DNA of 64,000 nt from assembly GCA_919902665.1 (NCBI GenBank), contig CAKKRK010000103.1, forward strand, positions 1 to 64,000, given 5' to 3'. This DNA comes from Nitrospiraceae bacterium. GTDB taxonomy: Bacteria; Nitrospirota; Nitrospiria; Nitrospirales; Nitrospiraceae. Below the pieces are notes generated by a model. It was not told the DNA's origin, did no database searches, and saw nothing but the letters and a program-made list of their open reading frames with translations. This document shows, piece after piece, positions 32,627 through 63,327 of the stretch. The translations under genes were made by a program, and so were the position numbers. Position 1 is the first letter of the stretch. Each line of letters opens with the position of its first letter.

Positions 32627-33570
32627 TTGATCCCCACCGCCAGAATGACCCCCAGCCCCGAAGCTGCCACCATGATGGTTGCCGCCAACGTCATGTCTCT
32701 TGGCTCTGCGCTCCGCCCCTCTACACCAAGGATAGGACGGTCGTGCGCAATTCCATCGTAGAAGTTGGTGCCTCCCAACCGTATTCCCAAGATCCCGGCC
32801 ATCGCTGCTTCAGGCCTGCCACTATTGGGACTGGGGTGGAGACTTCCATCTCGCTGAAACACTCTCCATCCGTTGCGAATCCGTTCCAGCTCTTGAGTAA
32901 TGAGACCTGCACCCAGGAGAAGCAGCACTGCCGAAAGCCGGGCAGGAATCCAGTTCACCAGATCATCAAGCCGAGCCGATGCCCAGCCAAGATAGGCATA
33001 GCGCTCATCACGATGGCCGATCATGGAATCCAATGTATTGACGGCCTTGTACGCCAAGGCCAATGGGGCCCCTCCGACCGCCAGATACAACAACGGCGCA
33101 ATCACACCGTCTGACACACTTTCTGCGACCGTTTCCACCGTCGCACGAGCTACCTCGGATTCGGAAAGCTCCGCCGTGTCCCTCCCCACGATCATGGCCA
33201 CAGCTCCACGGGCAGCAGGAAGATCACCGGCTTGGAGCGGATCATCCACCGCACGGGCATGATCCCATAGGTCTCGTGCGGCGAGAGTGGTTGAGGCCAA
33301 TCCAATCGACAGGGCTGATCCCAGCCACCCTGCTAAGTGCTCAGCCTCTTGAATTATGACAGCGCCGAGACAATAGGCCATAATCGGGAACCCTCCAGCC
33401 AGACAAATCCCTACCATCCGAAGGCTGGTGTTACTTCGACAGATGTTTCGGACCCGGTGATCGAGCCATGCAATGCACTGGCCCATTATACGGACTGGAT
33501 GAGGCAACCAGCGAGGATCACCACATATCCCGTCAAGTGCAGAAGCGATAAGGAGTTCGCCGCCGGTCAT
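32614..33570 (-). CDS. cbiB: adenosylcobinamide-phosphate synthase CbiB
   Basis: A 318-residue inner-membrane protein with several hydrophobic helices. LDGICGDPRWLPHPVRIMG near the N-terminus, TVETVAESVSDGVIAPLLY and the AYKAVNTLDSMIGHRDERY motif are strongly conserved in CbiB/CobD(Pseudomonas). It joins aminopropanol phosphate to adenosylcobyric acid. Its start overlaps the cobS stop by 4 bases. Confidence 0.93.
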   Translation of the reverse strand: MTGGELLIASALDGICGDPRWLPHPVRIMGQCIAWLDHRVRNICRSNTSLRMVGICLAGGFPIMAYCLGAVIIQEAEHLAGWLGSALSIGLASTTLAARDLWDHARAVDDPLQAGDLPAARGAVAMIVGRDTAELSESEVARATVETVAESVSDGVIAPLLYLAVGGAPLALAYKAVNTLDSMIGHRDERYAYLGWASARLDDLVNWIPARLSAVLLLLGAGLITQELERIRNGWRVFQRDGSLHPSPNSGRPEAAMAGILGIRLGGTNFYDGIAHDRPILGVEGRSAEPRDMTLAATIMVAASGLGVILAVGIKWLV

Positions 33571-34331
33571 GGTAACCGGAGCAAGAGTGGAACGAGTAAC
33601 AGGAAGAGGATTTCAATCACTTCATTCATAGCCCCAAGCGTATCCCCAGTGATCCCACCGAACCAGCTACGGCAGGCTGACCAGCCAACGAGTACGATTG
33701 GAGCGCCAGCGAGGAGGATCAGGCATGCACCAACCGCCCCAAAGCCTCCTGCCAGAGCAATCGTCAAGACTACCGTGGATATGGCCACGTGTCGCCATGA
33801 CAGATGAGTGAGGAACGGCGCTGCCAATCCTCCTTCCGATCTGGCATAGGGCGAAATCCACGCCAGCATGACCATCGCCCAACGTCCCATTGCCGGCATG
33901 CAGAGTACGGCGGGGAGCCGCAACTCAAGCGGCAGAGCCATCAATCCCGCATACCGAAGAATCAGTGAGAGAGAAAGTCCTGTCGCGCCGATCGCACCGA
34001 TACGGGGATCGCGCATGATCGAAAGCCGCTCAGCCGGTGTACGCCCTCCCGCCAATCCATCTAAGGTGTCAGCCAACCCGTCCTGATGAAGCCCTCGCGT
34101 CAACAGCACCAAGAGGATAATCAGCAGCACATTCACGACTGTCGGTGAGAGAATTGCCGTCAATCCAAAGTCCACAACGATGAGCCCACCGCCGATCAGC
34201 AAGCCAATGATGGGATACCAAGCCATCGATGCGGCTAGTTCTGGCGCGGTTGGCTCGTGGTGAGTTCGGCTCAACGGAATCGTCGTCAGAAAGTGCCAGG
34301 CAAAGATAAATGGACGGGCCACAGTTCCCAT
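33567..34331 (-). CDS. cobS: cobalamin synthase CobS (adenosylcobinamide-GDP ribazoletransferase)
   Basis: A 254-residue membrane enzyme that joins adenosylcobinamide-GDP to alpha-ribazole (phosphate). The conserved acidic motif appears as RGLHQDGLADTLDGLAGG (about 85-102), followed by MRDPRIGAIG. About six hydrophobic segments. The next gene in the direction of transcription, cbiB, overlaps by 4 bases; cobT ends 2 bases upstream. Confidence 0.93.
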   Translation of the reverse strand: MGTVARPFIFAWHFLTTIPLSRTHHEPTAPELAASMAWYPIIGLLIGGGLIVVDFGLTAILSPTVVNVLLIILLVLLTRGLHQDGLADTLDGLAGGRTPAERLSIMRDPRIGAIGATGLSLSLILRYAGLMALPLELRLPAVLCMPAMGRWAMVMLAWISPYARSEGGLAAPFLTHLSWRHVAISTVVLTIALAGGFGAVGACLILLAGAPIVLVGWSACRSWFGGITGDTLGAMNEVIEILFLLLVPLLLRLP

Positions 34332-34333
34332 CG

Positions 34334-35386
34334 TTACACCTTGTCAGATACGCCTGCTTCATCAAAGGTTGCCATCTCCGTATAGATCTTGATTGCGGCA
34401 CAGACCAAATCCATTCCCAAACAAGCCCCCGTGCCCTCGCCAAGACGCAAGTCAAGATCCAACAGCGGTTTCAATCTCAGATGGTCCAAGACCACGCGAT
34501 GGCCCTGCTCGACCGAGCGATGGGAGGCGATGAGATACTCACGACACAAGGGCTGAAGCCCGACGGCAATCAATGCCGCCGCCCCAGCAATGAACCCATC
34601 CAGCACGACAGGCACCCGGGCTGCCGCCGTACCAAGTATCACACCCACTAATCCAGCGATCTCCAGCCCGCCAACTTTCCTCAGAACATCGAGTGGATCC
34701 ATCATGTCGGGACGATGCAGTTCGAGTGCCCGCTCAATCACGGCTATCTTATGCTGACGACTGGACTCGTCGATGCCGGTCCCGCATCCGGTTACATCGG
34801 CCACAGGCCGACCGGTCATCGCCGCAGTAATAGCGGCACTGGGTGTCGTATTGCCAATACCCATCTCACCGGTGCCGATCAGGCCAATCCCCTCTCGCAC
34901 GACTTCTGTCGCCAGTTCAACTCCGATCATCACAGCCTGCTCTGCTTGGCTGCGTGTCATCGCCGATTCCACCGCCAGATTGTTCGTACCCTTCATAACT
35001 TTCCGAGCAAGCAGACCGGGCACAGCGTCGAACTCATAATCGACACCGATGTCCACCACTCGCACATCCACGCCGGCATGCCTTGCCAACACATTCACGC
35101 CAGCCCCACCCCGCAGAAAGTTCAAGACCATTTGGGGGGTAACCTCCCGAGGATAGGCACTCACCCCTTCCAAAGTCACTCCGTGATCAGCGGCAAAAGT
35201 AAAGACTACGCCGCGTGGAACATTCGGCTTCACTTCACCGGTGATGGAGACGTAGGACGCCGCCAATTCTTCCAGGCGCCCGAGACTGCCGAGCGGTTTG
35301 GTCAGCCGATCCAATCTGGCTTGTGCCTTTCCACGGAGACTAATATCGACCGGCTGAATACGACGGCACAGGTCCTGTATCGACAT
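34334..35386 (-). CDS. cobT: nicotinate-nucleotide:dimethylbenzimidazole phosphoribosyltransferase CobT
   Basis: A 350-residue enzyme that activates 5,6-dimethylbenzimidazole to alpha-ribazole phosphate. Seen in order: LDRLTKPLGSLGRLEELA, the FAADHGVTLEGVSAYP motif, GEMGIGNTTPSAA, GTGIDESSRQHKI and the catalytic Glu in RLGEGTGACLG near the C-terminus. It works with BluB (which makes the base) and CobS. A long opposite-strand reading across this gene is a shadow. Confidence 0.95.
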   Translation of the reverse strand: MSIQDLCRRIQPVDISLRGKAQARLDRLTKPLGSLGRLEELAASYVSITGEVKPNVPRGVVFTFAADHGVTLEGVSAYPREVTPQMVLNFLRGGAGVNVLARHAGVDVRVVDIGVDYEFDAVPGLLARKVMKGTNNLAVESAMTRSQAEQAVMIGVELATEVVREGIGLIGTGEMGIGNTTPSAAITAAMTGRPVADVTGCGTGIDESSRQHKIAVIERALELHRPDMMDPLDVLRKVGGLEIAGLVGVILGTAAARVPVVLDGFIAGAAALIAVGLQPLCREYLIASHRSVEQGHRVVLDHLRLKPLLDLDLRLGEGTGACLGMDLVCAAIKIYTEMATFDEAGVSDKV

Positions 35387-35400
35387 GACGGCTCCTCTAG

Positions 35401-35961
35401 TTACTTCAAGCGAAGCGATAGTCCGCTCACGATCAGATGCACTTCATCCACTCCAGCGGCAATCTGCTGGTTCACCCGTCCGGCAAGATCGCGAAACGCA
35501 CGTGTTGTAGGCTCAGCCGGAACCAGCCCAAACCCCAACTCATTACTGACGATGACCACTCTAGCCGCTGCAGTCCGCATCCGTTGCACCAGCGTTCCAG
35601 CTCGGGTGAGAATGACTGATTCAGTGAGGCCGGTTCCAACCAAATTACTCAACCACAATGTGACGCAATCGAAGAGAATTGTCTGGTACCGAGGACCCTG
35701 TTTGGCAAACCATGCCTCCACTTCGAGCGGCGCTTCAACGGTCTCCCAATCCGCCGAGCGTGTGGCCTGGTGTCGAGCGATGCGTGCCGCCATTTCACCA
35801 TCCAACCCTTGCCCCGTTGCAACGAATGCGCGCGGCCCTCGGGATCCGGCTAACTTGAGTGCGGCCTCACTTTTCCCAGACGACGCTCCGCCAAGCACAA
35901 GAATAATACGCCCCTTGGCTCGTCGCGTCGGCCGGCGGTTACTTGGCTTTCTTGGCGACAT
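35401..35961 (-). CDS. cobU: adenosylcobinamide kinase/guanylyltransferase CobU
   Basis: A 186-residue bifunctional enzyme that phosphorylates adenosylcobinamide and then forms adenosylcobinamide-GDP. The P-loop is GGASSGKSE, the guanylylated His lies in ARHQATRSADW, and VSNELGFGLVP and FRDLAGRVNQ follow as in the family. I chose the ATG at 35961; it overlaps the end of the adenosyltransferase gene upstream by 23 bases. An earlier ATG at 36033 would extend further into that gene with no conserved residues. Confidence 0.92.
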   Translation of the reverse strand: MSPRKPSNRRPTRRAKGRIILVLGGASSGKSEAALKLAGSRGPRAFVATGQGLDGEMAARIARHQATRSADWETVEAPLEVEAWFAKQGPRYQTILFDCVTLWLSNLVGTGLTESVILTRAGTLVQRMRTAAARVVIVSNELGFGLVPAEPTTRAFRDLAGRVNQQIAAGVDEVHLIVSGLSLRLK

Positions 35962-36535
35962 CACGTTCCCATAAGAATTCAGGCTCGTCCTGCGTCTTGG
36001 AAACCCACCGAGCCAGCACGAACAACGCATCACTCAACCGATTGACGAACTTGATGATCGTCGAATCGACTGGCTCCGCTTTTGAGAGCGCCACACACAA
36101 CCGTTCAGCGCGGCGACAAACCGTCCGAGCCTGGTGCAAAAACCCTGAAACTTTTCCGCCTCCCGGCAGGATGAATTCTTTCAGCGGCTCCAAATCTTTT
36201 TGGCACCGATCCATCAGTTTTTCTAACCGTGTGACGTCCTTCGCCGCGACCTGTGGCATATTCTTGAAGGTTTGTCCCGGGGCCGTCGCCAGAATGCTGC
36301 CCACATCGAATAATTTGTTCTGTACCCAACGTAGCTCGTCTTCAAGTGCTGCGGCAGCTGAATACTCGTCCACAACATCGGTATTCATCACCCTCACCAC
36401 ACCGATCGACGCATTCAACTCATCAATCGTGCCGTAGGCTTCAACCCGCAGACTGTCTTTCCACACCTGTTGTCCGCCGGCCAGTCTGGTTTTTCCCGCG
36501 TCCCCTGTTCTTGTGTAGACCTTGGTGATGCGCAT
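35939..36535 (-). CDS. PduO-type ATP:cob(I)alamin adenosyltransferase
   Basis: About 198 residues from the ATG at 36535 (AGAGGGG upstream). ITKVYTRTGDAGKTRLAGG at the start, YGTIDELNA, and FILPGGGKVSGFLHQARTVCRRAER near residue 135 are the hallmarks of the PduO/MMAB family, which attaches the adenosyl group to cobalt. A second adenosyltransferase of the unrelated BtuR type is 1 kb upstream. The bluB reading frame runs about 95-115 bases into the start of this gene. Confidence 0.92.
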   Translation of the reverse strand: MRITKVYTRTGDAGKTRLAGGQQVWKDSLRVEAYGTIDELNASIGVVRVMNTDVVDEYSAAAALEDELRWVQNKLFDVGSILATAPGQTFKNMPQVAAKDVTRLEKLMDRCQKDLEPLKEFILPGGGKVSGFLHQARTVCRRAERLCVALSKAEPVDSTIIKFVNRLSDALFVLARWVSKTQDEPEFLWERDVAKKAK

Positions 36536-37217
36536 CCCCATCCCCTCTCTTGTCATGAATCCGATTGCCCCATGACTCGTCGTGAATTAATTGGCCAACT
36601 GGAATCCGACTCCGCCATCCGGCTGCTTCTAGATCCGGTCGGTCTTCAAACTTGGATACATAGCCGAGGCAGAGATAGGCAAGGATCGTCACCGAGTGAG
36701 GTACGCCGATCACTTGTTTGAGCTTCTTGTGATCTAAAATACTGACCCAACCGACGCCAATGCCCTCGGCCCTCGCGGCTAACCAGAGATTCTGAACGGC
36801 GCAACAGGTGCTGTACAAGTCTGTTGCGCGCACCGTGGAGCGGCCAAGCACGTTCGGCCCCCCGCGCTTCCGGCTACAGGTAATGCATAGATTGATCGGC
36901 GCTTCTTCGATGCCCTCCAGCTTCAACTGCCGGTACAATGCCCCCTTGGTGCCTGCATACCGGACAGACGCTTTGGTATTCGCCTCGACGAAGAGGTCCT
37001 TCACCGTGCGCTTCGTGGCACGATTGCGGATGACCACGAAATCCCACGGCTGCATAAATCCCACCGATCCTGCATGATGTGCCGCCGTCAGCAGCCTCAT
37101 CATCACCGCATCTGGAATCGGCGTCGGCGTAAAATTCCGGCGCACATCTCGCCGTTCAAAAATCGCACGATAGACCGCTTCCCGCTCAGCGTTGGAGAAT
37201 CGGCCATTGGTTCGCAT
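36441..37217 (-). CDS. bluB: 5,6-dimethylbenzimidazole synthase BluB
   Basis: A 258-residue flavin-destructase of the nitroreductase fold, making the cobalamin lower ligand from FMN with oxygen. RAIFERRDVRRNF, GFMQPWDFVVI, and the GVGWVSILDHKKL and AYLCLGYV segments mark BluB. Family members end close to the HDESWG stretch (about residue 218); here the frame continues about 40 more residues, very basic and unconserved, across the start of the adenosyltransferase gene. The extra tail is probably a lost stop codon. Oxygen dependence implies an organism that meets oxygen. Confidence 0.9.
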   Translation of the reverse strand: MRTNGRFSNAEREAVYRAIFERRDVRRNFTPTPIPDAVMMRLLTAAHHAGSVGFMQPWDFVVIRNRATKRTVKDLFVEANTKASVRYAGTKGALYRQLKLEGIEEAPINLCITCSRKRGGPNVLGRSTVRATDLYSTCCAVQNLWLAARAEGIGVGWVSILDHKKLKQVIGVPHSVTILAYLCLGYVSKFEDRPDLEAAGWRSRIPVGQLIHDESWGNRIHDKRGDGDAHHQGLHKNRGRGKNQTGRRTTGVERQSAG

Positions 37218-37447
37218 TAATGCCTCGCTCGATCGCCCTGGTTATGGTTAGTCAAATTGCGCTGAGGCTTCAGCTCACCTGCTGCGATTTTTTCTAAACA
37301 ATGAGAACAGAGACAATCCTCATACCGCGCCCCAATCCAATCCATTTGTGCCTCGGTAATGCCGAGCTTGCCACACCAGCACTGGTATCCGCCACACTCG
37401 AAGTCGTGCCCGCAGCGCTCGCAGGTCTTCTGAACCGGCCCTCTCAA
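37217..37447 (-). CDS. small cysteine-rich CWC-type protein
   Basis: A 76-residue protein with Cys pairs CERCGHDFECGG, QCWCGK and CLCSHCLEKI, a likely zinc-binding pattern of the 'cysteine-rich CWC' family. Function is not established. Its ATG overlaps the btuR stop (ATGA) and its stop overlaps the bluB start by one base, so it is embedded in the cobalamin operon. Confidence 0.75.
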   Translation of the reverse strand: MRGPVQKTCERCGHDFECGGYQCWCGKLGITEAQMDWIGARYEDCLCSHCLEKIAAGELKPQRNLTNHNQGDRARH

Positions 37448-38043
37448 AATTCCACTCCCGGTTGCGCCTTAATGCCATTTCGGAAGGGATGCTTCACTTG
37501 TTTCATTTCCGTTACAAGGTCGGCTTCTTCCAAAAGCTCCGCTGGCCCCCCTCTGCCGGTGATCACCGCATGCTGCATCGGTGGACGGTTGCGCAGTACC
37601 GGCAGTACATCATCCAGCTGGACATAGCCGTGCTTCAGCGCGATATTGAACTCGTCGAGGACCACCATGGCATAGGAGGGATCGCTGAGAAACTCACAGA
37701 CCTTTGCCCAAGCTTGTTGAGCAAAGTGCGTGTCCCGCTCCCGATCCTGCGTCTCCCAGGTATAGCCTTCACCCATTCGGAGAAATGTTACCTGATCACC
37801 AAACGACTTCAACGCCCGCTCTTCCGCGGTGTCAATAGCTCCTTTGATAAATTGGACCACTGCGACCTTCCAGCCATGCCCGATGCAGCGCAACACCATC
37901 CCCAGCGCGGCGGTCGTCTTGCCCTTGCCGGCACCGGTGTAGACAATCAAGAGCCCCTTCTCCTGTTTCGCTTCTGCAATGCGCCGATCAACCGAGGCCT
38001 TGAGACGCTCCATCTTTGCTGTATGCTCGTTCGGTTCAACCAT
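37444..38043 (-). CDS. btuR: corrinoid adenosyltransferase BtuR/CobA type
   Basis: A 199-residue P-loop enzyme: LLIVYTGAGKGKTTAALGM near residue 25, VVQFIKGA, and the FNIALKHGYVQLDDVLPVLRNRP stretch identify BtuR/CobO, which adenosylates cobyrinic acid diamide or cobalamin. I chose the ATG at 38043 because an AAAGG-type site precedes it and the 35 residues of the longer reading are unconserved. It starts the aerobic-looking end of the operon and may have its own promoter (38114-38143). Confidence 0.93.
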   Translation of the reverse strand: MVEPNEHTAKMERLKASVDRRIAEAKQEKGLLIVYTGAGKGKTTAALGMVLRCIGHGWKVAVVQFIKGAIDTAEERALKSFGDQVTFLRMGEGYTWETQDRERDTHFAQQAWAKVCEFLSDPSYAMVVLDEFNIALKHGYVQLDDVLPVLRNRPPMQHAVITGRGGPAELLEEADLVTEMKQVKHPFRNGIKAQPGVEF

Positions 38044-38113
38044 CACACACCTTTGATGTTCACAGCAAAGCCAAGCAAGATCACGGCCTTCTGTGCGTGA
38101 AAAAATCTTTGTG

Positions 38114-38143
38114 AGTATAGAGCGTGCCTCTGAACACCCACAA
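38114..38143 (-). promoter_or_regulatory. possible internal promoter upstream of btuR
   Basis: On the minus strand TTGTGG (38143-38138), 18-base spacer, TATACT (38119-38114). It lies in the 139-base gap between the PepSY gene and btuR, so the late cob genes may be expressed partly without riboswitch 4. Confidence 0.4.
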
Positions 38144-38181
38144 CCCATCCGTGAGACTCACTGGGGCTCTAGGTTGTACCA

Positions 38182-39711
38182 CTAAACCAGAGGTTTCTGC
38201 CTTCGTGGCTCCATGCAATTCCGTGCGCTACCGGATAACCAAGGACTTCGGCGACTCATAGTGACGAGCCTGGCAATCCCCAGATACACACCGGACAAGC
38301 TAAACAGGAATCCAGCTCCGCAGAGCCCTAAAAGTACCATTCTCCGCTGCCGGTCATGTTCCAAGAAAAATGGAACATCCCAGCTATGCAGACCATGAAA
38401 TAGCCATCGATATATTCTTCCGCTAGAGTTCATGAGCTCCATCAGCCGGCCTGTGTTCATATCGATGTGAATCCACGTCTGTTCCGGGTCATCCAAGACA
38501 ATTCGCAATCCTGAAAGTGGACGAGGATTATGAATTGTACTGTAATAATAGAGATCCCCTTGGGGGATATCGCTTCGATCTAACTGTTGAGCTGACATCA
38601 CCAGCTTTGCCGCTTCAGCTAGTGTATCGAGCGTAAATTTCGACGCAGGGGCCCGAACCCAGTCGGCGCTCATTACCACTTGCTGCTCGGAATCTGAGCG
38701 GAAGACATAGTAGCTCGCACCTCCGACTTTACTGAGCAGGATCTCTTTGACTGGAGCATCAAGCTGGAGATGCCGCATGGCATCTCCTAGCGGAACGCCA
38801 ATATCTTCAGGCACCAACATTCCACCCATGAAGCGTTGCCGCTGCTCCATTGTTGGCTCACTACGCGAGAACCATCGGCCGTGATCCATCGAGAGTAGGC
38901 CACTGAAAAGCCATAGACACACCACAGCTCCAATGGCCATCCCCCCCAGGTGATGCCACCGTTTAATTCCTATAAATTGGCTATGCAGACGTTGTCCTTG
39001 ACTGTGAAGAACATGCTGAATGCCTAGGACAAGCCCGGAGACAGCCGTGATGAGACCAGCAGCAGCCAACCACCAAACTGTTTGATCCCACAGGACCCAA
39101 TGCCGTCGGAGCATTGGTAAATAGAGCCAGTGAGTGATAGCCCCAAGAGTACTCCACTGCCGTTCGAACGCCGTCGTATCCATGACCAGTTCCCCGGTTG
39201 TTGAGGACAGATACAACTCTGTTCCCTTCGCATCATGCAGCTGGACCTTCCTCAGCGGTCGATGTGGATCGAATCGCTGGTGAACCGTCCATCGGTCGTC
39301 TCGTAACATTTCAACCGTTGAATCAACACCAAACGTGTGTCCATGTTGCATAGTCTGGACTGCGTCATGTTGCGTGATCTCTGATAGCGGCTCACCCTGA
39401 TCTGCCCACAGTCCCTTCAGCGTACCGTCTAGGAAATGGATCACGTAGACCGGTCGACCGGAGGCCATGAACAGACGTACCTGCTCGACCGCTTGAGGCA
39501 GCTCAACCTGATTCCAGATTAACTCCAGCGGCACACAGCAGTGATCCAACTGGAGTGGCTCCAGCCATTGAAAGCGCTCTTCTTCGTTCAGGTTTGGATA
39601 GGGAACAAAGAGCAACACCGCACCTGATCCGAACCATATCGTGACGAGTAACGCGAGGCACGTCCCAAGTACTCGATGAACACTTCTGATGCCGGCACGA
39701 ATCCACATCAT
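38182..39711 (-). CDS. PepSY-type inner-membrane protein (putative reductase partner)
   Basis: A 509-residue protein of the PepSY-associated transmembrane family. Hydrophobic helices lie at about 10-32, 210-230, 255-275 and 455-480, with two PepSY-like periplasmic domains between them. Conserved His in RSVHRVLGT and KRWHHLGGM and in LFHGLHSWDVP (heme- or metal-ligand positions in the family) suggest electron transfer across the membrane. Related proteins accompany siderophore receptors and reduce the bound metal. Here it follows a TonB receptor under a cobalamin riboswitch, so a corrinoid or cobalt role is possible. The upstream gene is only 12 bases away. Confidence 0.75.
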   Translation of the reverse strand: MMWIRAGIRSVHRVLGTCLALLVTIWFGSGAVLLFVPYPNLNEEERFQWLEPLQLDHCCVPLELIWNQVELPQAVEQVRLFMASGRPVYVIHFLDGTLKGLWADQGEPLSEITQHDAVQTMQHGHTFGVDSTVEMLRDDRWTVHQRFDPHRPLRKVQLHDAKGTELYLSSTTGELVMDTTAFERQWSTLGAITHWLYLPMLRRHWVLWDQTVWWLAAAGLITAVSGLVLGIQHVLHSQGQRLHSQFIGIKRWHHLGGMAIGAVVCLWLFSGLLSMDHGRWFSRSEPTMEQRQRFMGGMLVPEDIGVPLGDAMRHLQLDAPVKEILLSKVGGASYYVFRSDSEQQVVMSADWVRAPASKFTLDTLAEAAKLVMSAQQLDRSDIPQGDLYYYSTIHNPRPLSGLRIVLDDPEQTWIHIDMNTGRLMELMNSSGRIYRWLFHGLHSWDVPFFLEHDRQRRMVLLGLCGAGFLFSLSGVYLGIARLVTMSRRSPWLSGSARNCMEPRRQKPLV

Positions 39712-39723
39712 TTCATGCTCAAC

Positions 39724-41937
39724 TTAGAAGCGCGCGGTGAGCATGACTTCCATCGTCCGAGGGGCGCCGAGCAAGACCTGGCTGGGATAGAACGGATCGG
39801 CCCAGAGCGCATAGGTCTTGTCTGCCAGGTTTCGCCCCCGGATGGTGAGTGCGAACTGCTTATACGGAATCGTGACCCAGACATCCGCTGTGGTGTAGCT
39901 GTGCAGACGCACCGCATTGGCATTGTCCGCAAAGCGTGGGCCCACATAGCGGAACGAAGCGCCTAGGTCGAATGGCATGACGAACGGCACCCGGTACTGA
40001 CTCCACAGATTGGCTACCGTCTGCGGCACGTTCGGCGGCCGATTGCCATCGTGCGAAACCACATTCCCGCCAGTCTGCTCGGCGAAGTCCTCAAACTCTG
40101 CTGACAGAAACATCAGGTTCCCTTGGATCCGCCACGCGTCCGTCGGGCGCACGGCCGCACTCAGCTCAAAGCCCTTGGAGGTCTGCCGTCCCGCGTTCTC
40201 TGCCGTGGTCAAAGTGGTTTGGGTCAAGATGTTCTTCCGGAAGATATCGAAGTAGGCCACAGTCCATTCCGCCCGATTATTCCAGAGACTCTGCTTCAGG
40301 CCGACCTCCCACTGCGCGCCGGTGGCCAGGTCGAAGTTCTCCGCCGCCCGCACGAGGAATATGTTCGTACCGACAGGATCCGCCGCTGTCGCATAGTGCC
40401 CATACAGCGTCAGAGTCGGAAGCAGGTCATACACAGCGCCGACGCGCCAGGTGACCGGTTGAAAGTCTCGCTCAAAACTGGCCGCCGTATTGAACACCCC
40501 CGCGTTGTTGAACAGCTTCCGGTTGAGGTCGATATGGTCAAACCGCATCCCGCCGACCAGTTTCAACGAATCGGTCACGCTGAATTGGTTCTCCGCGAAG
40601 ATGGCGGTCGTGGTGATGGTGGACCGCTGTTCTGCCGAGACGATTGGCCCGAAGGAGCCGGTGGGAATCCCCAAGGGGTCCACGCTGTCTCCTCCGCTGA
40701 AGAAGCTTGGGCGATTCAGGTGGAGGTGGCTGAAATCCACGCCGACGACGAATCGATTCTTATGGGCGAAGAGCGATTCATTGACCTGCATCTCCAGCCG
40801 GTCTCCCAGGATGTATTGATCATGCTGGACGAAGAACCGATCCCGGTCGATCAACAGGGTCCCAGGGTTGAATTGGTAGGTCTCGGCATTCTGCCAGTCC
40901 CGTCCGGCCCAATAGTAGTAGCCCTGATTGCGAATCTGGATGGTGTCGGTTGGCTGCCAGTTCGCTTTGAGTTTGGCCCAGTAGGTCGTGGAACTCATGT
41001 TGGCATCGACGACGTTGAAGTTCTGACGGAGGATGCGCGCATCGAGGGTCCGCCCATCCCGTGTCGAGACAACATCGGGGACGGCGGAGGCCCCGGCGAA
41101 ACTCCCAGGAACCAGCGGGGTGCCCCAGTAGGGGACGCTGCGGTCATGGCTGACGTCGAACGACAGTTCGAAATTCAAGCGTGACGTCGCGTCATAGAGC
41201 AAGGCGCTGGTCATGTTCCAATAGGTGTAGGGCGTGCGTTGGACGCCGCTGAAGCTGTCGGACGTCTGATAGCTTAGATCGACGCGATAGTGGAGGTTAT
41301 CCCAGCGCAGAGGGCCGCCACTCCCAGCTGCCGCACGCAGGGTGTTGAAGGTCCCGTATGACAACAGCGCATCCACAGTGACCTGATCACTCCGCACCGG
41401 CCGCTTGGTGACGAAGTTGATGGCCCCGCCGAGCGCGCCTTCGCCATAGAGGACGGAGGCGGGGCCCTTGAGGATTTCGATGCGCTCCAGGTTCCAGGTG
41501 TCTCGAGGCCGGGAGGTCATCGAGGCGGGTCCGATCATCAGCCCGTCGTAGAGCAACCGGAGTTGATTGTTGGTGAAGCCTCGCATGGAGAAGTTGGCGG
41601 GATTGCCCGGGGAGTCGCCCACGGTCACGCCGGTGGCCCCTTCCACGGCTTCGGAGATCGTCCGTAGTCCTCGCTCCTGCAACAACGTCTGATCCACGAT
41701 TTCGACGCTGGCGGGAATCTCCCGTATCGAGAGCCCCAGCCGACTCGCCGAGGGATTCGGCTGGCCCAGATGCAACGTGCCCGTGTCTTGAGGTTTAATC
41801 GACGATCCGATCACGGTCACTTGCGGAACTTGTACGACTTCATGACTCTCAATTTCACGATCTTGAGCACTGACGGCAGAAGGCATAACACTCAAAACAA
41901 TTGCGAGTGCGTAAATAAGGCCACGACACATGGGCAT
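39724..41937 (-). CDS. TonB-dependent outer-membrane receptor (siderophore-receptor type) under a B12 riboswitch
   Basis: A 737-residue receptor: signal peptide (1-24, ending SAVSA), a TonB box region (QVPQVTVIGS, about 37-46), a plug domain (ISEAVEGATGVTVGDSPG, then MRGFTNNQLRLLYDG) and a 22-strand barrel ending in a C-terminal aromatic (TARF). Sequence style is that of FhuE/FecA siderophore receptors, not BtuB. The leader has a cobalamin riboswitch (41970-42118), so the cargo may be a corrinoid or a cobalt chelate. Two ATGs (41937, 41931) share one GGGGA site. Confidence 0.88.
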   Translation of the reverse strand: MPMCRGLIYALAIVLSVMPSAVSAQDREIESHEVVQVPQVTVIGSSIKPQDTGTLHLGQPNPSASRLGLSIREIPASVEIVDQTLLQERGLRTISEAVEGATGVTVGDSPGNPANFSMRGFTNNQLRLLYDGLMIGPASMTSRPRDTWNLERIEILKGPASVLYGEGALGGAINFVTKRPVRSDQVTVDALLSYGTFNTLRAAAGSGGPLRWDNLHYRVDLSYQTSDSFSGVQRTPYTYWNMTSALLYDATSRLNFELSFDVSHDRSVPYWGTPLVPGSFAGASAVPDVVSTRDGRTLDARILRQNFNVVDANMSSTTYWAKLKANWQPTDTIQIRNQGYYYWAGRDWQNAETYQFNPGTLLIDRDRFFVQHDQYILGDRLEMQVNESLFAHKNRFVVGVDFSHLHLNRPSFFSGGDSVDPLGIPTGSFGPIVSAEQRSTITTTAIFAENQFSVTDSLKLVGGMRFDHIDLNRKLFNNAGVFNTAASFERDFQPVTWRVGAVYDLLPTLTLYGHYATAADPVGTNIFLVRAAENFDLATGAQWEVGLKQSLWNNRAEWTVAYFDIFRKNILTQTTLTTAENAGRQTSKGFELSAAVRPTDAWRIQGNLMFLSAEFEDFAEQTGGNVVSHDGNRPPNVPQTVANLWSQYRVPFVMPFDLGASFRYVGPRFADNANAVRLHSYTTADVWVTIPYKQFALTIRGRNLADKTYALWADPFYPSQVLLGAPRTMEVMLTARF

Positions 41938-41969
41938 TCCCCTTTTGTTCTCGAAAGGTTGGTCGGAAT

Positions 41970-42118
41970 GTTCCCGTACCCAGGTCTCCTGACTCTCGGC
42001 TCCCCCTACTCTCTGCGCCTTCCCATCCGTATAGACAGTGGCTGAGTGCAGATTTCGTCCCCGATTACAGTTGCGGACCAGTGGCGGACTTTCACCGCGC
42101 TTCCCTTGAGTACGTGGA
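41970..42118 (-). promoter_or_regulatory. cobalamin riboswitch 4 (upstream of the TonB receptor-PepSY genes)
   Basis: On the minus strand the leader has GGGAAGCGCGGTGAAAGTCC at its 5' end, GCAACTGTAAT, CAGCCACTG, GGGAAGGCGC and the B12 box AGTCAGGAGACCTGG at the 3' end (about 41995-41978). No T-tract hairpin lies between it and the start codon 30 bases on, so control is probably at translation. Confidence 0.93.
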
Positions 42119-42166: not shown

Positions 42167-42967
42167 TTATGCTATCCGGATCTTGGCCTTCACCAAGGCC
42201 GACACAAAGGCTAACAAGACCGCGCCGAGCACAAGAATTGTGAGACCAAGATCGCTAATGGGCAGTGCAAACGATGTCGGTTGGAGCAGTTTGATGATCC
42301 CAACGAAGTAGGCCAACCCCACAACAGTCAGCGTTATCATCCGATTGCCCTGGATGGCCATCGTAGTGGCAGCCAGATACATCCGCCTGACGATCAGTCC
42401 ATTAATCGAGTCTGTGACGACCATTCCCATGCTGAAGGCCACTCCGATGAGCAGTGCGCCGAACAGGCCATAGCCCATCGTGCCCGCAAGAGCCCAGGCC
42501 GACATCTGACTGGCAGTCTCAAACCCCAGTCCGAACAACGCACCAATCGGCACCGCGCTCATCGGATGTGTGACATTGAAGAAACGCCTGGGCAACAAAT
42601 GGCCGATGACGCCGTGGCTCAGCACCGCTGATCCAGTCGGCACCGTAAGCACTCGCGCCAAATTCAACGACCCGATGACAAATAGGAGGCCGGCCGACAA
42701 GACCCCGCTGACCTGCAACACAGAGTCATTAAAGGATTGCAAATAGTCGGCCGCGAGAGCGATCGCCGTTGCAATCAATAAGACTGTCACTGCGTGCCCA
42801 AACGCGAACCACGTGCCCACCCACCGGCTCAGCTTTGGATGTCGATCCACCGACGCCCTCGTCATACCGTCGATGGCGGTGAGGTGGTCGGGATCGGCCC
42901 CATGGCTTAACCCCAATGCGCAGGCGAGACCGAGTAAGGGCCAGAGAGTACCGTCAGCTGGATTCAT
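42167..42967 (-). CDS. NiCoT-like nickel/cobalt transporter
   Basis: A 266-residue inner-membrane protein with about seven hydrophobic segments. The signature HGADPDHLTAIDG (the H-x3-D-x-D-H metal motif on an early helix) and LGFETASQ match the nickel/cobalt transporter family. It lies 50 bases after cobyric acid synthase in the cbi operon, which argues for cobalt as the substrate, feeding the CbiX chelatase. The ATG at 42967 is preferred to a TTG at 42982 because AAGAG lies just upstream. Confidence 0.8.
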   Translation of the reverse strand: MNPADGTLWPLLGLACALGLSHGADPDHLTAIDGMTRASVDRHPKLSRWVGTWFAFGHAVTVLLIATAIALAADYLQSFNDSVLQVSGVLSAGLLFVIGSLNLARVLTVPTGSAVLSHGVIGHLLPRRFFNVTHPMSAVPIGALFGLGFETASQMSAWALAGTMGYGLFGALLIGVAFSMGMVVTDSINGLIVRRMYLAATTMAIQGNRMITLTVVGLAYFVGIIKLLQPTSFALPISDLGLTILVLGAVLLAFVSALVKAKIRIA

Positions 42968-43016
42968 AGGACTCTTTGGCAATTGCCCATTTCAAAGGAA
43001 AGTCATGCTGCATGGT

Positions 43017-44567
43017 TCACATAGGAGAAACTGGAGAGAGGCCCGTGAGACGCCCGAGCATTTCGCAATCGAGATGCTCACGCACCACGGCTTCTAGCCG
43101 GTCATACTCAGCCTGCTTCGTGGGGATGCGTGGAATCGTGGTACATGTAGGGAGACCTTTACGGGTACGCAGAAACGAAAGAGTCCGGTCCCTGATCACC
43201 TCATTCTCAAACAGGCCATGCAACATAGTGCCGACCACCATCCCGTCGCCGCTGAGGGCTCCATCCCCGCGCCGCTCCACACGGCCATTTCGCAACCGTA
43301 TGTCAAACAAGCTCGTCCGTTCGTTCCTCAGCTCCACCATGCCCATATGGATTTCATATCCCTGAATCTCTTCTTCGACCACCGTTCCATTGGTGAGAAA
43401 CGAGGGCTGCGCCACGCGAGCACGAACTTGTGCGGTAACCTTTTCGCGTTCGAAGTGCGTCTGCAAGGCAAGCAGCCCCAACCCACGTACGTGGGCTTCC
43501 ATCGATTCGACCCCATGGGGATCACTGATGCTTTCCCCAAGCATTTGACAGCCGCCACAAATCCCAACGATCGGTTTCCCTTCACGAGCGCGGGCCTCGA
43601 TCGCGTTTGCGATACCAGATGTGCGAAGCCAGGACAGGTCAGACGCGGTATTTTTTGACCCTGGCAGGATCACCAGATCTGCCTCTTGTATCGTGTCAGG
43701 CTGATTGACGAATCGAACAACGACGCCTGGCTCGTGTTCCAGAGCTTCAACATCGTCGTAGTTGGAAATGCGAGGCAACCGCACCACCACGATATCTAGT
43801 TCCTTCTGCGATGGTTTGGGACGAGCCATGCGGTCTTCAAGTGAGACGGAATCTTCATCAGCAATACGAAGGTCTTGAATAAACGGCAGGACGCCCAACA
43901 CGGGTTTGCCAGTGCGTGCGGTGAGAAAATCGAGCCCCGGCGTAAGCAGCGTCTGATCTCCGCGGAACTTATTCACGACAAACGCCGCAATTCTGGCTCG
44001 TTCGTCTGGATCAAGCAGTTCCATCGTTCCGACAAATGCCGCAAATACCCCGCCGCGATCGATATCCCCCACGAGCAGCACTGGCGCATCCGCCAACTTG
44101 GCCACGTGCATATTCACGATGTCGCGAGACTTCAAATTGATCTCAGCCGGACTCCCTGCCCCTTCGATCACGACCAGGTCATAGTCGGTACGGAGTCGCG
44201 TGAGTGAATTTGCGATCACGTCTGACAGACGGGGCTTGTACTCGTGATACTCGGCGGCTGTCATGCTGCCGATCAATTTGCCGAGCACCACCACCTGGCT
44301 TCGCCGATCACCTTCCGGCTTAAGAAGGATCGGATTCATATCGACCGTAGCCACGATCCCTGAGGCCTCGGCCTGTACGGCTTGCGCCCGACCGATCTCC
44401 AGACCGTCGGCTGTGACCGCTGAGTTGAGCGCCATGTTCTGCGACTTGAATGGAGCGACCCTGAGCCCCTCACGGCGGAAGAATCGACAGAGGGCTGTGA
44501 CCAGGAGACTTTTCCCAGCCGAAGAGGTGGTCCCCTGAACCATGATCGTGGGTGCAAGACCTTTCAC
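43017..44567 (-). CDS. cbiP: cobyric acid synthase (CbiP/CobQ)
   Basis: A 516-residue glutamine-dependent amidase that amidates side chains b, d, e and g of adenosylcobyrinic acid diamide. N-terminal dethiobiotin-synthase-like ATPase (VQGTTSSAGKSLL; FKSQNMALNSAVTADGLEIGRAQA) and a class I glutaminase domain (catalytic Cys in VGICGGCQMLGE, His in GTMLHGLFEN). The GTG at 44567 overlaps the cbiA stop by 4 bases (GTGA) with GAGGAGA upstream, which settles the start. It differs clearly from the broken copy at 30033-30789, so the two are not recent duplicates. Confidence 0.95.
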   Translation of the reverse strand: MKGLAPTIMVQGTTSSAGKSLLVTALCRFFRREGLRVAPFKSQNMALNSAVTADGLEIGRAQAVQAEASGIVATVDMNPILLKPEGDRRSQVVVLGKLIGSMTAAEYHEYKPRLSDVIANSLTRLRTDYDLVVIEGAGSPAEINLKSRDIVNMHVAKLADAPVLLVGDIDRGGVFAAFVGTMELLDPDERARIAAFVVNKFRGDQTLLTPGLDFLTARTGKPVLGVLPFIQDLRIADEDSVSLEDRMARPKPSQKELDIVVVRLPRISNYDDVEALEHEPGVVVRFVNQPDTIQEADLVILPGSKNTASDLSWLRTSGIANAIEARAREGKPIVGICGGCQMLGESISDPHGVESMEAHVRGLGLLALQTHFEREKVTAQVRARVAQPSFLTNGTVVEEEIQGYEIHMGMVELRNERTSLFDIRLRNGRVERRGDGALSGDGMVVGTMLHGLFENEVIRDRTLSFLRTRKGLPTCTTIPRIPTKQAEYDRLEAVVREHLDCEMLGRLTGLSPVSPM

Positions 44568-45943
44568 CGAACTCTCCTCGCATGCGTAGTACAGGCTTGC
44601 ACGAACCCCTGAACCAGGAGAGGATTTGAAGCCCAATGGGCATGGATATAGGAACCCAGCGTATTGCCACGGCGATAGCCCTCCCCAAAGGGCTCCCCGC
44701 CACGTCGACGACACACGTTGTAGGTGCGCTCGACGTCCGGCGAAAGGTGAAAGTCTGAATAGCGAAATTGATGGCCGCGAAATCGCAGACCTGCTGGACC
44801 AAGCAGCGTGTTTTCCTTCGTCTCGACCTCGACATATCCCAGCGCCTGCAGGCGATCTTTCATCTCTGCTTCACCAGGAATGAGCCCCACCATCGGATAC
44901 AGCGTGCGATCGAGCGTTCGAATGCCGCTGGATAAATACATGAGACCGCCACATTCGCCATAGATAGGTCCTTGCATCTCTGCAAACGATGCCACGTCTG
45001 TGCGCATGCTCTGGTTCCGAGACAGACCTTCGGCATGGACCTCCGGATACCCGCCTCCGAAATAGAGACCATCCACATCGGGCAAATGCGCATCATGAAT
45101 GGGGGAGAATCGAACAAGCTCCGCGCCAAGACTCTCAAGACGGCGGAGGTTGTCGTCGTAATAGAAGTGAAAGGCTTCGTCAAAGGCGAGGCCGATTCGG
45201 CACCGTACCCCTTCCGTAACAGTTTGTTCCATCGCGTGAGTTTCGGGGAGAGCCGGCGCGGCATGAGCCAGTGCTATGATGGCATCGATATCGCACCACT
45301 CGCTCACTCGATCGCCCCAGGCTACGAAGACGTTTTCCGACACCGTTATACGATCGGCGCTATGCAGTCCCAGATGCCGATCTGCAAAAGCCAAGGAGGA
45401 TTCCTTGGGAAGTCCACCCATAACGGGAGGTGAACCCTCCGTCGCTTTGCGGAGTAAATCCAGATGCCCACGGCTGCCGACTCGATTGCAGATCAGTCCC
45501 GCAACCTGAAGATCGACATCGAAAGTTGAAAACCCTCGGGCCAATGCTGCAACACTGCGGGCCATACCCCCTGTGTCGCAGACAAGCAGTACCGGTGCCT
45601 GTAGCCACTTCGCGATCTCAGCGGTTGACCCTTCGTCACTCGTCGGTGACGCGCCATCAAAAAGACCCATCACGCCTTCGAGGAGTGCGATATCAGCCCC
45701 TTGCGTTGCACGTGTGAACGTCGAGAGAACCGCATCACGCCCCATCATCCATCCATCCAGATTGTGACATGGCGCATCGGCTGCACGAACGTGATAGGTC
45801 GGGTCGAGGTAGTCCGGACCACATTTGAAGACAGCCACGCGCAGTCCCCTTGCACGCAATGCCCGAACAAGACCAACCATGACTGTCGTCTTGCCGACAT
45901 TACTAGACGTCCCTGCAATAACAAGTCGTGGGATCTTCAGCAT
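44564..45943 (-). CDS. cbiA: cobyrinic acid a,c-diamide synthase (CbiA/CobB)
   Basis: A 459-residue glutamine-dependent amidase. P-loop AGTSSNVGKTTV, then FKCGPDYLDPTYH and LLEGVMGLFDG in the N-terminal ATPase; the glutaminase Cys in YGECGGLMYL and the C-terminal GNTLGSYIHAHW complete the picture. It amidates the a and c acetate groups. It follows cobA-hemD after a 109-base gap in which I see no riboswitch or clear promoter. Confidence 0.95.
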   Translation of the reverse strand: MLKIPRLVIAGTSSNVGKTTVMVGLVRALRARGLRVAVFKCGPDYLDPTYHVRAADAPCHNLDGWMMGRDAVLSTFTRATQGADIALLEGVMGLFDGASPTSDEGSTAEIAKWLQAPVLLVCDTGGMARSVAALARGFSTFDVDLQVAGLICNRVGSRGHLDLLRKATEGSPPVMGGLPKESSLAFADRHLGLHSADRITVSENVFVAWGDRVSEWCDIDAIIALAHAAPALPETHAMEQTVTEGVRCRIGLAFDEAFHFYYDDNLRRLESLGAELVRFSPIHDAHLPDVDGLYFGGGYPEVHAEGLSRNQSMRTDVASFAEMQGPIYGECGGLMYLSSGIRTLDRTLYPMVGLIPGEAEMKDRLQALGYVEVETKENTLLGPAGLRFRGHQFRYSDFHLSPDVERTYNVCRRRGGEPFGEGYRRGNTLGSYIHAHWASNPLLVQGFVQACTTHARRVR

Positions 45944-54502: not shown

Positions 54503-54880
54503 TCATGTCCCCGCACACTCCGCCAGACATCCAAATCGTTCACAGATCTGTGTCGCACGGTCAGGGCTATAATTCTCAGCTCGCGCCGGGTTCGTGCCTC
54601 TGAACGTCACACGGCAGAATAGAACCCCACCTGGTCCTACGAGCTCAAGCGCCGCATTGGCTTCGTCTTCGTGCCGGTATGTCAACTTGCTCCCCTCTTC
54701 GATCTTGAGATGTACATGGGTCTTCCCCTCTTCGCCAAGCGTGACCCACTCGGCCCCCTGTCGCAGAGTTACGAGACCATGAACCTCAGCAATTGCACCG
54801 GACGAACGGACGATGACGCTCGTATCCCCGTACGCAAGCGCTGCTTCCAGCGCTGAGAGAATCTGCTCCTGTCCGGTCAT
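54503..54880 (-). CDS. unknown 125-residue protein, possibly HutX/ChuX-like
   Basis: A small soluble protein with a strand-rich centre (EVHGLVTLRQGAEWVTLG; KTHVHLKIEEGSKL; GGVLFCRVTFRGTNP). The order of strands and the HVHLKI segment resemble heme-handling HutX/ChuX proteins, but the match is weak and by eye. Its start overlaps the flavoprotein gene stop by 4 bases and cbiD follows after 3 bases, so it is cotranscribed with ring synthesis. It could bind a tetrapyrrole intermediate; that is inference only. Confidence 0.55.
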   Translation of the reverse strand: MTGQEQILSALEAALAYGDTSVIVRSSGAIAEVHGLVTLRQGAEWVTLGEEGKTHVHLKIEEGSKLTYRHEDEANAALELVGPGGVLFCRVTFRGTNPARAENYSPDRATQICERFGCLAECAGT

Positions 54881-55608
54881 GCGGATTTCTTCGGCATATT
54901 AAAAAACGATTCGACCTGGTCCTTCCCCACGGCTACTCCGGCAATGACCAGATCATCGAACAACACCTGATTGACGGCTCCATCGCCTGCGATAAAGATC
55001 TGTCCAAGATCGCCGCGCAATTGCTCCTCACGGAGAATGGCTCTGGCTTCTGGAATCCGGTCTGGATGACCGACCTCAGGAATCGCTGCAATTCTCACCT
55101 CGCCACAGGCTGCGGGAATCTGATTCTTCACGAACTCTTCCGGAAGGAAATACTCTGCTGAGGCTCGCAGCCAGATGAGTACCGTCTGAGGCAGCAGCGG
55201 CGCAAAGCGAGTGGCGCGCACAAGCCCCAGTGCGGCGGTAATCCCTGTATCCGTTGCCAGAATCAACGTCCTCCCAGAGGTCTCCTCTCTCGGAACAAAC
55301 TTCCCCCAGGGTCCGCTGAACGAAACATCTGTTCCTACTGCAAGCCCATGTACAAAGGCGGATCCCAGTCCATCGGGAATGCGTTTCACTGCAAGCTGGA
55401 AGCGACGTTGTTCCGCATCACTGGTCAGGAGCGAGTACGCGCGCTTGACGGCCTTGCCGCTCGGCAAGACCATTCGACTATCGAGGATCAGATACTGTCC
55501 GCCGACAAATCCCAACGGTTCGGTTGCCAACAGATCGAGCAGCAGGGTATCGGGCCCCAGCCTCTCGGTGTTCATCACTTGGGCAGTCTTCGCAACAGCC
55601 ATCGCCAC
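54877..55608 (-). CDS. ferredoxin-NADP reductase-like flavoprotein in the cbi operon
   Basis: A 243-residue FNR-fold enzyme. The FAD-binding motif appears as KRAYSLL (about 55-61), the nicotinamide-domain loop as LATDTGITAALGLVR (about 118-132) and a C-terminal GDGAVNQVLFDDL segment. It should shuttle electrons from NAD(P)H. Cobalt-precorrin-6A reductase (CbiJ) is missing from this otherwise full set, which makes this gene a candidate for that step or for keeping cobalt reduced. Its ATG shares one base with the stop of the DUF3209-like gene. Confidence 0.75.
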   Translation of the reverse strand: MAMAVAKTAQVMNTERLGPDTLLLDLLATEPLGFVGGQYLILDSRMVLPSGKAVKRAYSLLTSDAEQRRFQLAVKRIPDGLGSAFVHGLAVGTDVSFSGPWGKFVPREETSGRTLILATDTGITAALGLVRATRFAPLLPQTVLIWLRASAEYFLPEEFVKNQIPAACGEVRIAAIPEVGHPDRIPEARAILREEQLRGDLGQIFIAGDGAVNQVLFDDLVIAGVAVGKDQVESFFNMPKKSA

Positions 55609-55982
55609 TACTCCGCCGGATAGATCTCGTGGACAAAATCATGCATTTCATCAAGGTCACGGTAGAACTGTGTCAGGCTCCCGATCTGATGGGTCAGATC
55701 GAGATCGACCTTTTTCGTGAGGACCACGAGCGTGCGTAGGTACGGAAGCTTGGGGTCATCAGCGCGCGTTGCCGACACACGTTGCTCAAGTGCGGCAACC
55801 GCACCTTCATAATACTGTTTGAGCGATGCCAGATCCCTCGCCACACACATGGAACGAATCGGGCCTGGCTGATCGGCCCCGACACCGAGTTCAGCCAGCT
55901 CATGCTGCCGCTCAGCTTCGTTCTTCACCCCTAATACTTCCATCAAGCCCAGCCGAAGCCCTGCGATTTCATGACAGGCCAT
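55608..55982 (-). CDS. DUF3209-family protein
   Basis: A 124-residue, mainly helical protein opening MACHEIAGLRLGLMEVLG, which I recognise as DUF3209; as I recall, members sit beside cbiX in other B12 clusters, including haloarchaea. A conserved Cys/His pair (residues 3-4) and helices LASLKQYYEGAVAAL and LTQFYRDLDEMHDFVHEIY follow. Function unknown. GGAGG lies 7 bases before the ATG at 55982, which fixes the start; it slightly overlaps the cbiX end (15 bases or so upstream reading). Confidence 0.7.
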   Translation of the reverse strand: MACHEIAGLRLGLMEVLGVKNEAERQHELAELGVGADQPGPIRSMCVARDLASLKQYYEGAVAALEQRVSATRADDPKLPYLRTLVVLTKKVDLDLTHQIGSLTQFYRDLDEMHDFVHEIYPAE

Positions 55983-55995
55983 TGTGAATCCTCCG

Positions 55996-59681: not shown

Positions 59682-59717
59682 GAAAACCTCCCTTTGACTC
59701 GAAGGGTGTCTATCGTC

Positions 59718-59858
59718 CCGGCAGTTGGGTTTCCTGACTTGCGGATCACAGCTTCTCTGCGCCTTCCCATGTGCCGAGGCACACAGTGGCATCCGGCAGA
59801 GTCACTCCCCGCTTACAGTGGCGGCACCGTGATGGAGTTGCACCATCTTCCCCGTCGC
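59718..59858 (-). promoter_or_regulatory. cobalamin riboswitch 2 (upstream of btuB)
   Basis: Minus-strand leader with GGGGAAGATGGTGCAACTCC, GCCGCCACTGTAAGCGGGG, GGGAAGGCGCAGAG and a slightly altered B12 box AAGTCAGGAAACCCAACTG (59742-59723; the usual AGGAGACC is AGGAAACC). The ribosome binding site of btuB follows closely, pointing to translational control. Confidence 0.9.
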
Positions 59859-60006
59859 TGACGGTATGACCTAACGAATCCCTCTCGAATGATTATTCTG
59901 CACCAGACGACTTCTGCAGGAGAGCGGTACATTCTCATCCTGCTCACTTCAGATTGCCTTGGCCACTCCTCTTGGTGGCTCACCATCATCATAATCAGCC
60001 GGTGTG

Positions 60007-60198
60007 CTAATTCCGGATAGAGTCGATCGAGTATCGTGAAGAGCGCGGTACCATGCGATCCAAATGTGAGTCGAACGTGAGAACAGCAGCGCGCTCGGAC
60101 GTATGTGCGAGCAATCGCACACCGTCCTTCACAACTAAGCTCAGCGCCTTCCAGAAGTCCAACGTCATTTCTGTGCCGGTTCGGTTACAGACAATCAA
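60007..60198 (-). CDS. small unknown ORF at the end of the btuFCD operon
   Basis: A possible 63-residue protein (TTG start at 60198; an internal ATG at 60168). I do not recognise it firmly: the run ERAAVLTFDSHLDRMV is loosely like a fragment of a von Willebrand A domain, so it may be the remnant of a larger gene. Its start overlaps the btuD stop by 4 bases. Low certainty that it is a real gene. Confidence 0.3.
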   Translation of the reverse strand: MIVCNRTGTEMTLDFWKALSLVVKDGVRLLAHTSERAAVLTFDSHLDRMVPRSSRYSIDSIRN

Positions 60199-63230: not shown

Positions 63231-63235
63231 AAGAA

Positions 63236-63273
63236 AAAATCCCCAAGGCCTGAACAGACCTTGAGGATTGCAC
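63236..63273 (-). terminator. intrinsic terminator of the btuF leader
   Basis: Minus strand ATCCTCAAGG (about 63268-63259) pairs with CCTTGGGGAT (about 63248-63239), followed by six T. It lies right before the TTG start, downstream of riboswitch 1. The GGGGA in the 3' arm doubles as the likely Shine-Dalgarno. Confidence 0.85.
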
Positions 63274-63327
63274 CCGCTTCTTCATCCTCACACGTTCCCC
63301 AGCCCTCGAGGGAACGACAGTCAATGC

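Follow-up and report, generated by a model that had tools for sequence, protein, structure and literature searches.

What would a TonB-dependent receptor and a PepSY-type membrane protein take up when they are encoded among cobalamin biosynthesis genes and directly behind a cobalamin riboswitch? This question is raised by a locus on contig CAKKRK010000103.1 of a Nitrospiraceae bacterium (assembly GCA_919902665.1). Positions 1 to 64,000 of the contig were analyzed, and this whole stretch is referred to as the window. All genes discussed are located on its minus strand, in the order cbiA, cbiP, NicO, riboswitch, TonB receptor, PepSY gene, cobO, bluB, pduO, cobU, cobT, cobS, cbiB (coordinates in Table 1). 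A sequence-only reading of the locus had proposed an undescribed route for corrinoid or cobalt-chelate uptake, coupled to reduction at the inner membrane and separate from BtuB-BtuFCD. A metal-chelate unit controlled by vitamin B12 is well supported by the results described below; the metal is probably cobalt, and the function of the unit is predicted from sequence.

The riboswitch, already named as the controlling element in the sequence-only reading, was identified directly before the receptor gene by RF00174, with 80.5 bits against a gathering score of 31.5 (E 3e-18). The complete 3.56 Mb genome contains four cobalamin riboswitches, all four inside the window, and the other three precede a CbiX-led biosynthesis run, a BtuB-like receptor and a BtuF-like gene. 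The canonical aptamer core is kept across eight loci, with 11 pairs showing two-sided changes; the outer ends of the RF00174 model (1-44 and 170-189) are unmatched in the window riboswitch and matched in genomes G025, G146 and G058. A hairpin (CCUUU-loop-AAAGG) located 3′ of the aptamer was present in both the minimum-energy and the centroid folds, and equivalent Shine-Dalgarno hairpins were read by eye in the other seven loci. The fold energy of the riboswitch region was no better than that of shuffled sequence (z 0.53) and lends no support; therefore, the evidence is the conservation of the hairpin. Translational shut-off is the known mode of the btuB switch. Since the 3′ arm of the hairpin is the receptor Shine-Dalgarno sequence, the arrangement points to a similar mode here, in which adenosylcobalamin would shut off receptor translation, with the direction of regulation (B12 represses) assigned by analogy with the known riboswitch class.

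The receptor and PepSY genes are separated by 12 bp, and the PepSY gene and cobO by 33 bp. The late B12 genes expected after the pair (CobO, BluB, PduO, CobU, CobT, CobS and, after CobS, CbiB) are in place, and no convincing terminator or promoter was found between the genes of the receptor-PepSY-late B12 run, which therefore probably share one transcript.

The product of the receptor gene has Plug (E 1.9e-24) and TonB barrel (E 1.2e-46) domains, a signal peptide ending in SAVSA and a TonB-box-like sequence, VPQVTVIG. That it is not BtuB was borne out by wide margins, with scores of 81 bits against a cutoff of 599.7 for TIGR01779 and 48 against 836 for NF007926. The receptor passes TIGR01783 (TonB-siderophor; 247.7 bits, cutoff 223.5), as the earlier label of siderophore-type receptor would have it; nonetheless this is a broad subfamily with no fixed metal, and the label gave way to that of a CrtA-like, small-chelate receptor. 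When solved structures were searched with phmmer, the nearest was 9RVQ, CrtA of Bordetella pertussis (E 5.5e-103 over 723 residues, about 34% identity), and the next best reached 3e-34. A plain iron-siderophore receptor was rejected as too broad an assignment, CrtA being the nearest structure by about 69 orders of magnitude in E-value. CrtA is a TonB-dependent transporter of chelated copper with apparently low ligand selectivity, in which His358 is essential, and its gene usually has the PepSY_TM gene crpH after it (PMC12914433, PMC13038864). A PepSY_TM-type gene was also found directly 3′ of the CrtA-like receptor in the window and in many related loci. Of the six residues of the CrtA ligand site, the window receptor keeps Trp265, Glu337, His358 and Arg395; Tyr130 is replaced by Pro, and the Gln356 position aligns to V or is one residue off. 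The His, Glu and Arg residues were invariant across all 26 receptors compared, and position 265 is Phe or Trp depending on the receptor type. Judged by its residues, the site is that of a small-chelate receptor, for which a corrinoid would be an unusual ligand.

Direct sequence searches with the PepSY protein of the window produced no Pfam match, including the PepSY_TM model, and no PDB match. In its alignment, 35 of the 36 members match PepSY_TM with E up to 0.01, the exception being the window protein itself. A first AlphaFold2 model, built from 9 sequences, was poor (predicted local distance difference test, pLDDT, 56) and was replaced by one built from the 36 sequences (pLDDT 88.6). The sole Foldseek match of this model under 0.001 was FoxB (7ABW; E 1.8e-6). 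A VIA-align superposition on 7ABW gave a Z of 14.9 over 273 aligned residues with an rmsd of 10.0, a value large enough to indicate that the domains are placed differently, and sequence similarity to FoxB was at profile noise only (E 9.2). Hydropathy indicated about four transmembrane segments. His12, His194, His253 and His442 are conserved and lie at or near membrane helices in the model; His277 was also noted. The four conserved residues fit the two heme pairs of FoxB and His200/His444 of CrpH, and the protein is predicted to bind heme. The FoxB-like predicted fold agrees with the chelate-reductase type assigned to this partner before.

A search for further riboswitch-receptor-PepSY loci, which had been recommended as a check, showed that the unit recurs in Nitrospirota, Nitrospinota and Nitrosomonas. 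In a sample of 80 related loci from species genomes, 17 had a riboswitch 37-464 bp upstream of the receptor gene and on the same strand, against a rough background of riboswitch placement of 0.0003 per gene, with the reservation that the loci are not independent. These 17 belong to Nitrospira and other Nitrospirota, Nitrospinota, Nitrosomonas, Acetobacter, two Proteobacteria and, more weakly, two Bermanella, and nine of them have a PepSY gene within tens of bases downstream. Many receptor-PepSY pairs of Proteobacteria and Acidobacteria have no riboswitch (Rfam was checked in twelve loci). When the riboswitch was mapped on the receptor tree, eight changes were counted, at least seven of them forced by well-supported branches, which implies that B12 control arose or disappeared several times within a single receptor family. 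Chance proximity of riboswitch and receptor was ruled out by this recurrence, both in the loci and on the tree. In genome G417 (locus L160, 6489-11351, with a second riboswitch at 11230) the order NicO-riboswitch-receptor-PepSY is retained with a receptor and a PepSY protein from other subfamilies, which suggests that selection maintains the pairing as such. A third group of receptors (about 60% identical; loci L063-L066 and L068-L070) has no PepSY gene directly downstream and often lies near a second receptor; a classical PepSY_TM protein is found further along in L063.

The genes around the unit point to cobalt, as far as gene families can tell. NicO, which the sequence-only reading had not mentioned, carries the motif HGADPDH, an instance of HxxxxDH read in its sequence, and scores under the NCBIfam subfamily cutoff. 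It is found directly upstream of the riboswitch in every Nitrospira copy, and the same position is occupied in genomes G094, G101, G025, G146, G371 and G417. NicO was present in six of 116 related genomes; five have the riboswitch-receptor-PepSY slot, and the sixth is truncated where its contig ends. Sorted by CbiD, the slot was found in 5 of 7 genomes with this gene and seen in 0 of the 109 others, a count that includes the scaffolding-damaged G101 and in which receptors of other subfamilies were not searched for among the 109. In Nitrosomonas and Nitrospirales, a cobaltochelatase-type CobN and an ExbB-like protein are encoded upstream. The riboswitch-controlled CrtA-like receptor of locus L088 (4656-10670) is followed by a NikA-type Ni/Co binding protein (E 6.9e-115) and permease-like open reading frames, L122 has NicO beside a riboswitch, and in Nitrospirillum CobW-like and NicO genes accompany the receptor and PepSY genes. 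Because the receptor is CrtA-like, a type for small metal chelates, and its neighbors include NicO, CobN and NikA, the cobalt-chelate half of the earlier proposal is favored and the corrinoid half appears less likely. A CobN-type chelatase lies directly upstream of the receptor in loci L024, L072, L090, L092 and L095, together with a MotA/TolQ/ExbB-like protein (Pfam-tested in L092) that may be the energizing partner of the TonB receptor. The NikA-type protein of L088 is also similar to the staphylopine-metal protein CntA.

On balance we consider it fairly probable that the unit serves B12-repressed acquisition of cobalt, combining import of a cobalt chelate, heme-dependent periplasmic reduction and import by NicO. 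At low adenosylcobalamin the riboswitch would leave the ribosome site free and the receptor and PepSY protein would be translated; the steps after translation are proposed from family membership and neighborhood. The CrtA-like receptor would import a small cobalt chelate, such as a xenometallophore or a carboxylate complex, with TonB energy. The FoxB/CrpH-like PepSY protein would then pass electrons through two hemes to the periplasmic chelate, converting inert Co(III) to labile Co(II) and freeing the metal. The neighboring NicO would carry Co2+ into the cytoplasm, where a CbiX-type enzyme would insert it into the corrin ring. Since Co(III) chelates are inert and Co(II) chelates labile, the reductive step is chemically sensible.

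The origin of the receptor gene bears on its selectivity. From about codon 46 to the stop codon it shares 92% DNA identity with a receptor gene of G019 (Nitrospira RSF1), and outside this tract the two loci do not match. In G019, G006 and other genomes that receptor is encoded in an island with COG0523 GTPases, DUF1826 and TonB, and with no riboswitch; the mature receptor is about 97% identical between the B12 locus and the island. The trees conflict, with the window PepSY protein grouping with those of B12 loci (100/100) and the window receptor nesting within the island receptors (100/100). Because the DNA identity is confined to the tract and the two trees disagree, the riboswitch, signal peptide and PepSY gene are taken as native to the B12 locus and the mature part of the receptor as brought in from a paralogous metal island. 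An assembly artefact was discarded as the cause of the mosaic: the window contains no N, the second genome G094 carries the same mosaic receptor, and the window genome lacks any island copy for the assembly to have collapsed. That a receptor from another locus still sits intact in the B12 operon suggests that the chelate, rather than the metal, may be what the receptor recognizes.

Nitrospira islands of this kind (L020, L021, L022, L057-L059, L061 and L071) hold several COG0523 (CobW-like) GTPases, DUF1826, a CrtA-like receptor, a PepSY protein, TonB and a second large receptor. They look like a zinc-starvation set by gene content, the sole basis of the label, since no Zur-like box or clear palindrome was found before the island receptors. 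In RSF12 (L056/L079, L159) the B12 locus runs into the island within a disrupted receptor gene. The B12-type PepSY gene lies on a separate contig, where its neighbor is a 29-residue receptor tail that adjoins a run of N; the fused locus probably arose during scaffolding, where near-identical copies of the receptor were joined.

Several observations weigh against a cobalt acquisition unit. CrtA, the characterized relative, imports copper, and its proposed copper filter, His358, is kept here; for any member, cobalt transport is at the stage of prediction. Adjacency need not mean a shared substrate, because CrpH works independently of the substrate of CrtA (PMC13038864). That the mature part was exchanged with one from a COG0523/DUF1826 island is an argument against cobalt selectivity of the receptor itself, and the riboswitch-controlled relatives in L095, L088 and L122 lack a PepSY gene directly downstream.

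The alternative that survives these points best is a broad-specificity receptor that imports several divalent metal chelates, with the regulator and the inner-membrane partners deciding the metal, and this is compatible with cobalt acquisition at the level of the unit. The near-identity of the mature receptors of B12 locus and island speaks for it, as does the description of the copper relative as a possible scavenger with low selectivity; the small site differences between receptor types (Phe or Trp at 265) speak against it, and we regard it as a real possibility while leaning the other way. We consider it unlikely that the unit handles chelates of copper, zinc or iron in the manner of CrtA-CrpH or FoxA-FoxB and just happens to be under B12 control, providing aerobic respiration with a different metal or with reductase activity in the periplasm. 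CrtA and CrpH do serve copper for heme-copper oxidases (PMC12914433, PMC13038864) and nearly identical receptors occur in islands without riboswitch, but the B12 riboswitch was linked to the receptor repeatedly on distant branches of its tree, the link to cobalt genes is repeated as well, and the slot is restricted to B12 producers.

Corrinoid uptake is covered by a separate BtuB-BtuFCD set in the window, in agreement with the earlier claim that the unit is distinct from that system. Among model scores, BtuB is at the top for the receptor of this set and BtuC for the permease, and for the other two proteins BtuF and a corrinoid ATPase rank among the highest-scoring models; all four family assignments fall under the equivalog cutoffs. 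Least probable, by a small margin, is a second corrinoid route, in which the receptor would import an unusual corrinoid (e.g., cobyric acid or cobinamide complexes) to be reduced or decyanated by the PepSY protein in the periplasm before adenosylation by CobO or PduO. In its favor, btuB is also controlled by this class of riboswitch, BluB and corrinoid adenosyltransferases are encoded in the same gene run, and in two Bermanella loci (L133 and L134) BtuC-like genes accompany the receptor, with a weak riboswitch match. Against it, the receptor belongs by clade and by conserved site with receptors for small chelates, BtuB-BtuFCD with riboswitches of its own is already present, and the unit has no corrinoid ABC partner, its partners elsewhere being NicO, NikA and CobN.

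Comparison with known systems places the cobalt unit closest to CrtA-CrpH, described in 2026 for copper (PMC12914433, PMC13038864). Both have the same receptor family, the order receptor then PepSY_TM, the invariant ligand-site His and heme-type His residues in the partner; at 34% identity they differ in the Pro at Tyr130 and the unconserved Gln356, and the unit has a B12 riboswitch and cobalt/B12 neighbors in place of copper control. FoxA-FoxB (7ABW) shares the PepSY_TM fold with four heme-type His residues and the receptor-reductase pairing, whereas the unit receptor is closer to CrtA than to FoxA and the PepSY similarity is at noise level in sequence. BtuB-BtuFCD also has a TonB receptor under a cobalamin riboswitch, but the receptor is of another family. 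In Novosphingobium aromaticivorans, a riboswitch-controlled cobalt TonB receptor with NiCoT and CobW has been predicted (Rodionov 2006, via PMC7689651); this system resembles the unit in the riboswitch before a TonB receptor and the NiCoT permease, and the review mentions no PepSY reductase. The IcuABC system of Methylobacterium extorquens, in which a TonB receptor and periplasmic proteins enhance the uptake of cobalt (PMC3621897), likewise ties such a receptor to cobalt supply, and no PepSY partner is mentioned for it. A full-text search of the open-licence literature retrieved no paper in which cobalamin riboswitch, TonB-dependent and PepSY occur together. Calling the route undescribed was thus too strong, since riboswitch-controlled cobalt receptors had been predicted; the coupling to a PepSY reductase, which was not found in the literature searched, the kinship with CrtA and the phylogenetic spread look new.

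Table 1. Features of the receptor-PepSY locus and of the separate corrinoid uptake set in the window.
Feature	Position	Strand	Evidence or content
cbiA	44564-45943	-	
cbiP	43017-44714	-	
NicO/NiCoT-family Ni2+/Co2+ permease, final gene of the upstream cbiA-cbiP-nicO run	42167-42982	-	PF03824, E 3.9e-22
Cobalamin riboswitch, aptamer core	41982-42106	-	RF00174, 80.5 bits
Probable expression platform, CCUUU/AAAGG hairpin over Shine-Dalgarno AAAGG	41940-41966	-	Minimum-energy and centroid folds
CrtA-like TonB-dependent receptor, 737 aa	39724-41937	-	phmmer to CrtA 9RVQ
Predicted recombined tract, receptor codon ~46 to stop, from island-type paralogue	39723-41802	-	DNA identity and tree conflict
PepSY_TM/FoxB-like membrane protein, predicted reductase, 509 aa	38182-39711	-	Predicted fold, conserved His, hydropathy
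CobO/BtuR corrinoid adenosyltransferase	37444-38148	-	TIGR00708 above cutoff
BluB DMB synthase	36441-37217	-	TIGR02476 above cutoff
PduO-type adenosyltransferase	35939-36556	-	TIGR00636 above cutoff
CobU, CobT, CobS	33567-36033	-	PF02283, PF02277, PF02654 above cutoff
BtuB-BtuFCD-like set	57681-63558	-	Riboswitch 63315-63558; BtuF-, BtuC-, BtuD-like ABC; riboswitch 59707-59889; BtuB-like receptor

Other genes of the window deserve mention. Two unrelated corrinoid adenosyltransferases, of the CobO and PduO types, are found within one gene run (35939-38148). The CbiX chelatase encoded at 55996-57177 contains two CbiX stretches, with a 2Fe-2S ferredoxin domain of the thioredoxin-like type at its C terminus. 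The riboswitch-controlled interval 54503-56015, lying between cbiX and cbiD, encodes three proteins: one with DUF3209, one resembling a FAD_binding_6 oxidoreductase, and one of 125 aa that has no match in Pfam.

A more general proposal, which we offer tentatively and rate a little short of even, is one of reductive cobalt piracy. B12 makers, nitrifiers prominent among them, would take inert Co(III) chelates through a CrtA-like receptor, a heme PepSY protein would strip the metal, NiCoT or NikABC would import it and B12 would feed back on the process, with receptors swapped between metal regulons by recombination. According to a 2021 review, no cobalt-specific outer-membrane receptor had been confirmed (PMC7689651). 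The unit provides recurrent, named candidates for such a receptor and predicts when they should be on or off (B12 represses); its proposed reduction step has no description for cobalt in the literature searched. Prominent among the carriers are oxidizers of nitrite and ammonia (Nitrospira, Nitrospina and Nitrosomonas), which makes the supply of cobalt to B12-making nitrifiers a testable matter. Finally, the exchange of a receptor between regulons suggests that the metal served by a TonB receptor may depend on the regulator and the partners rather than on the sequence of the receptor.

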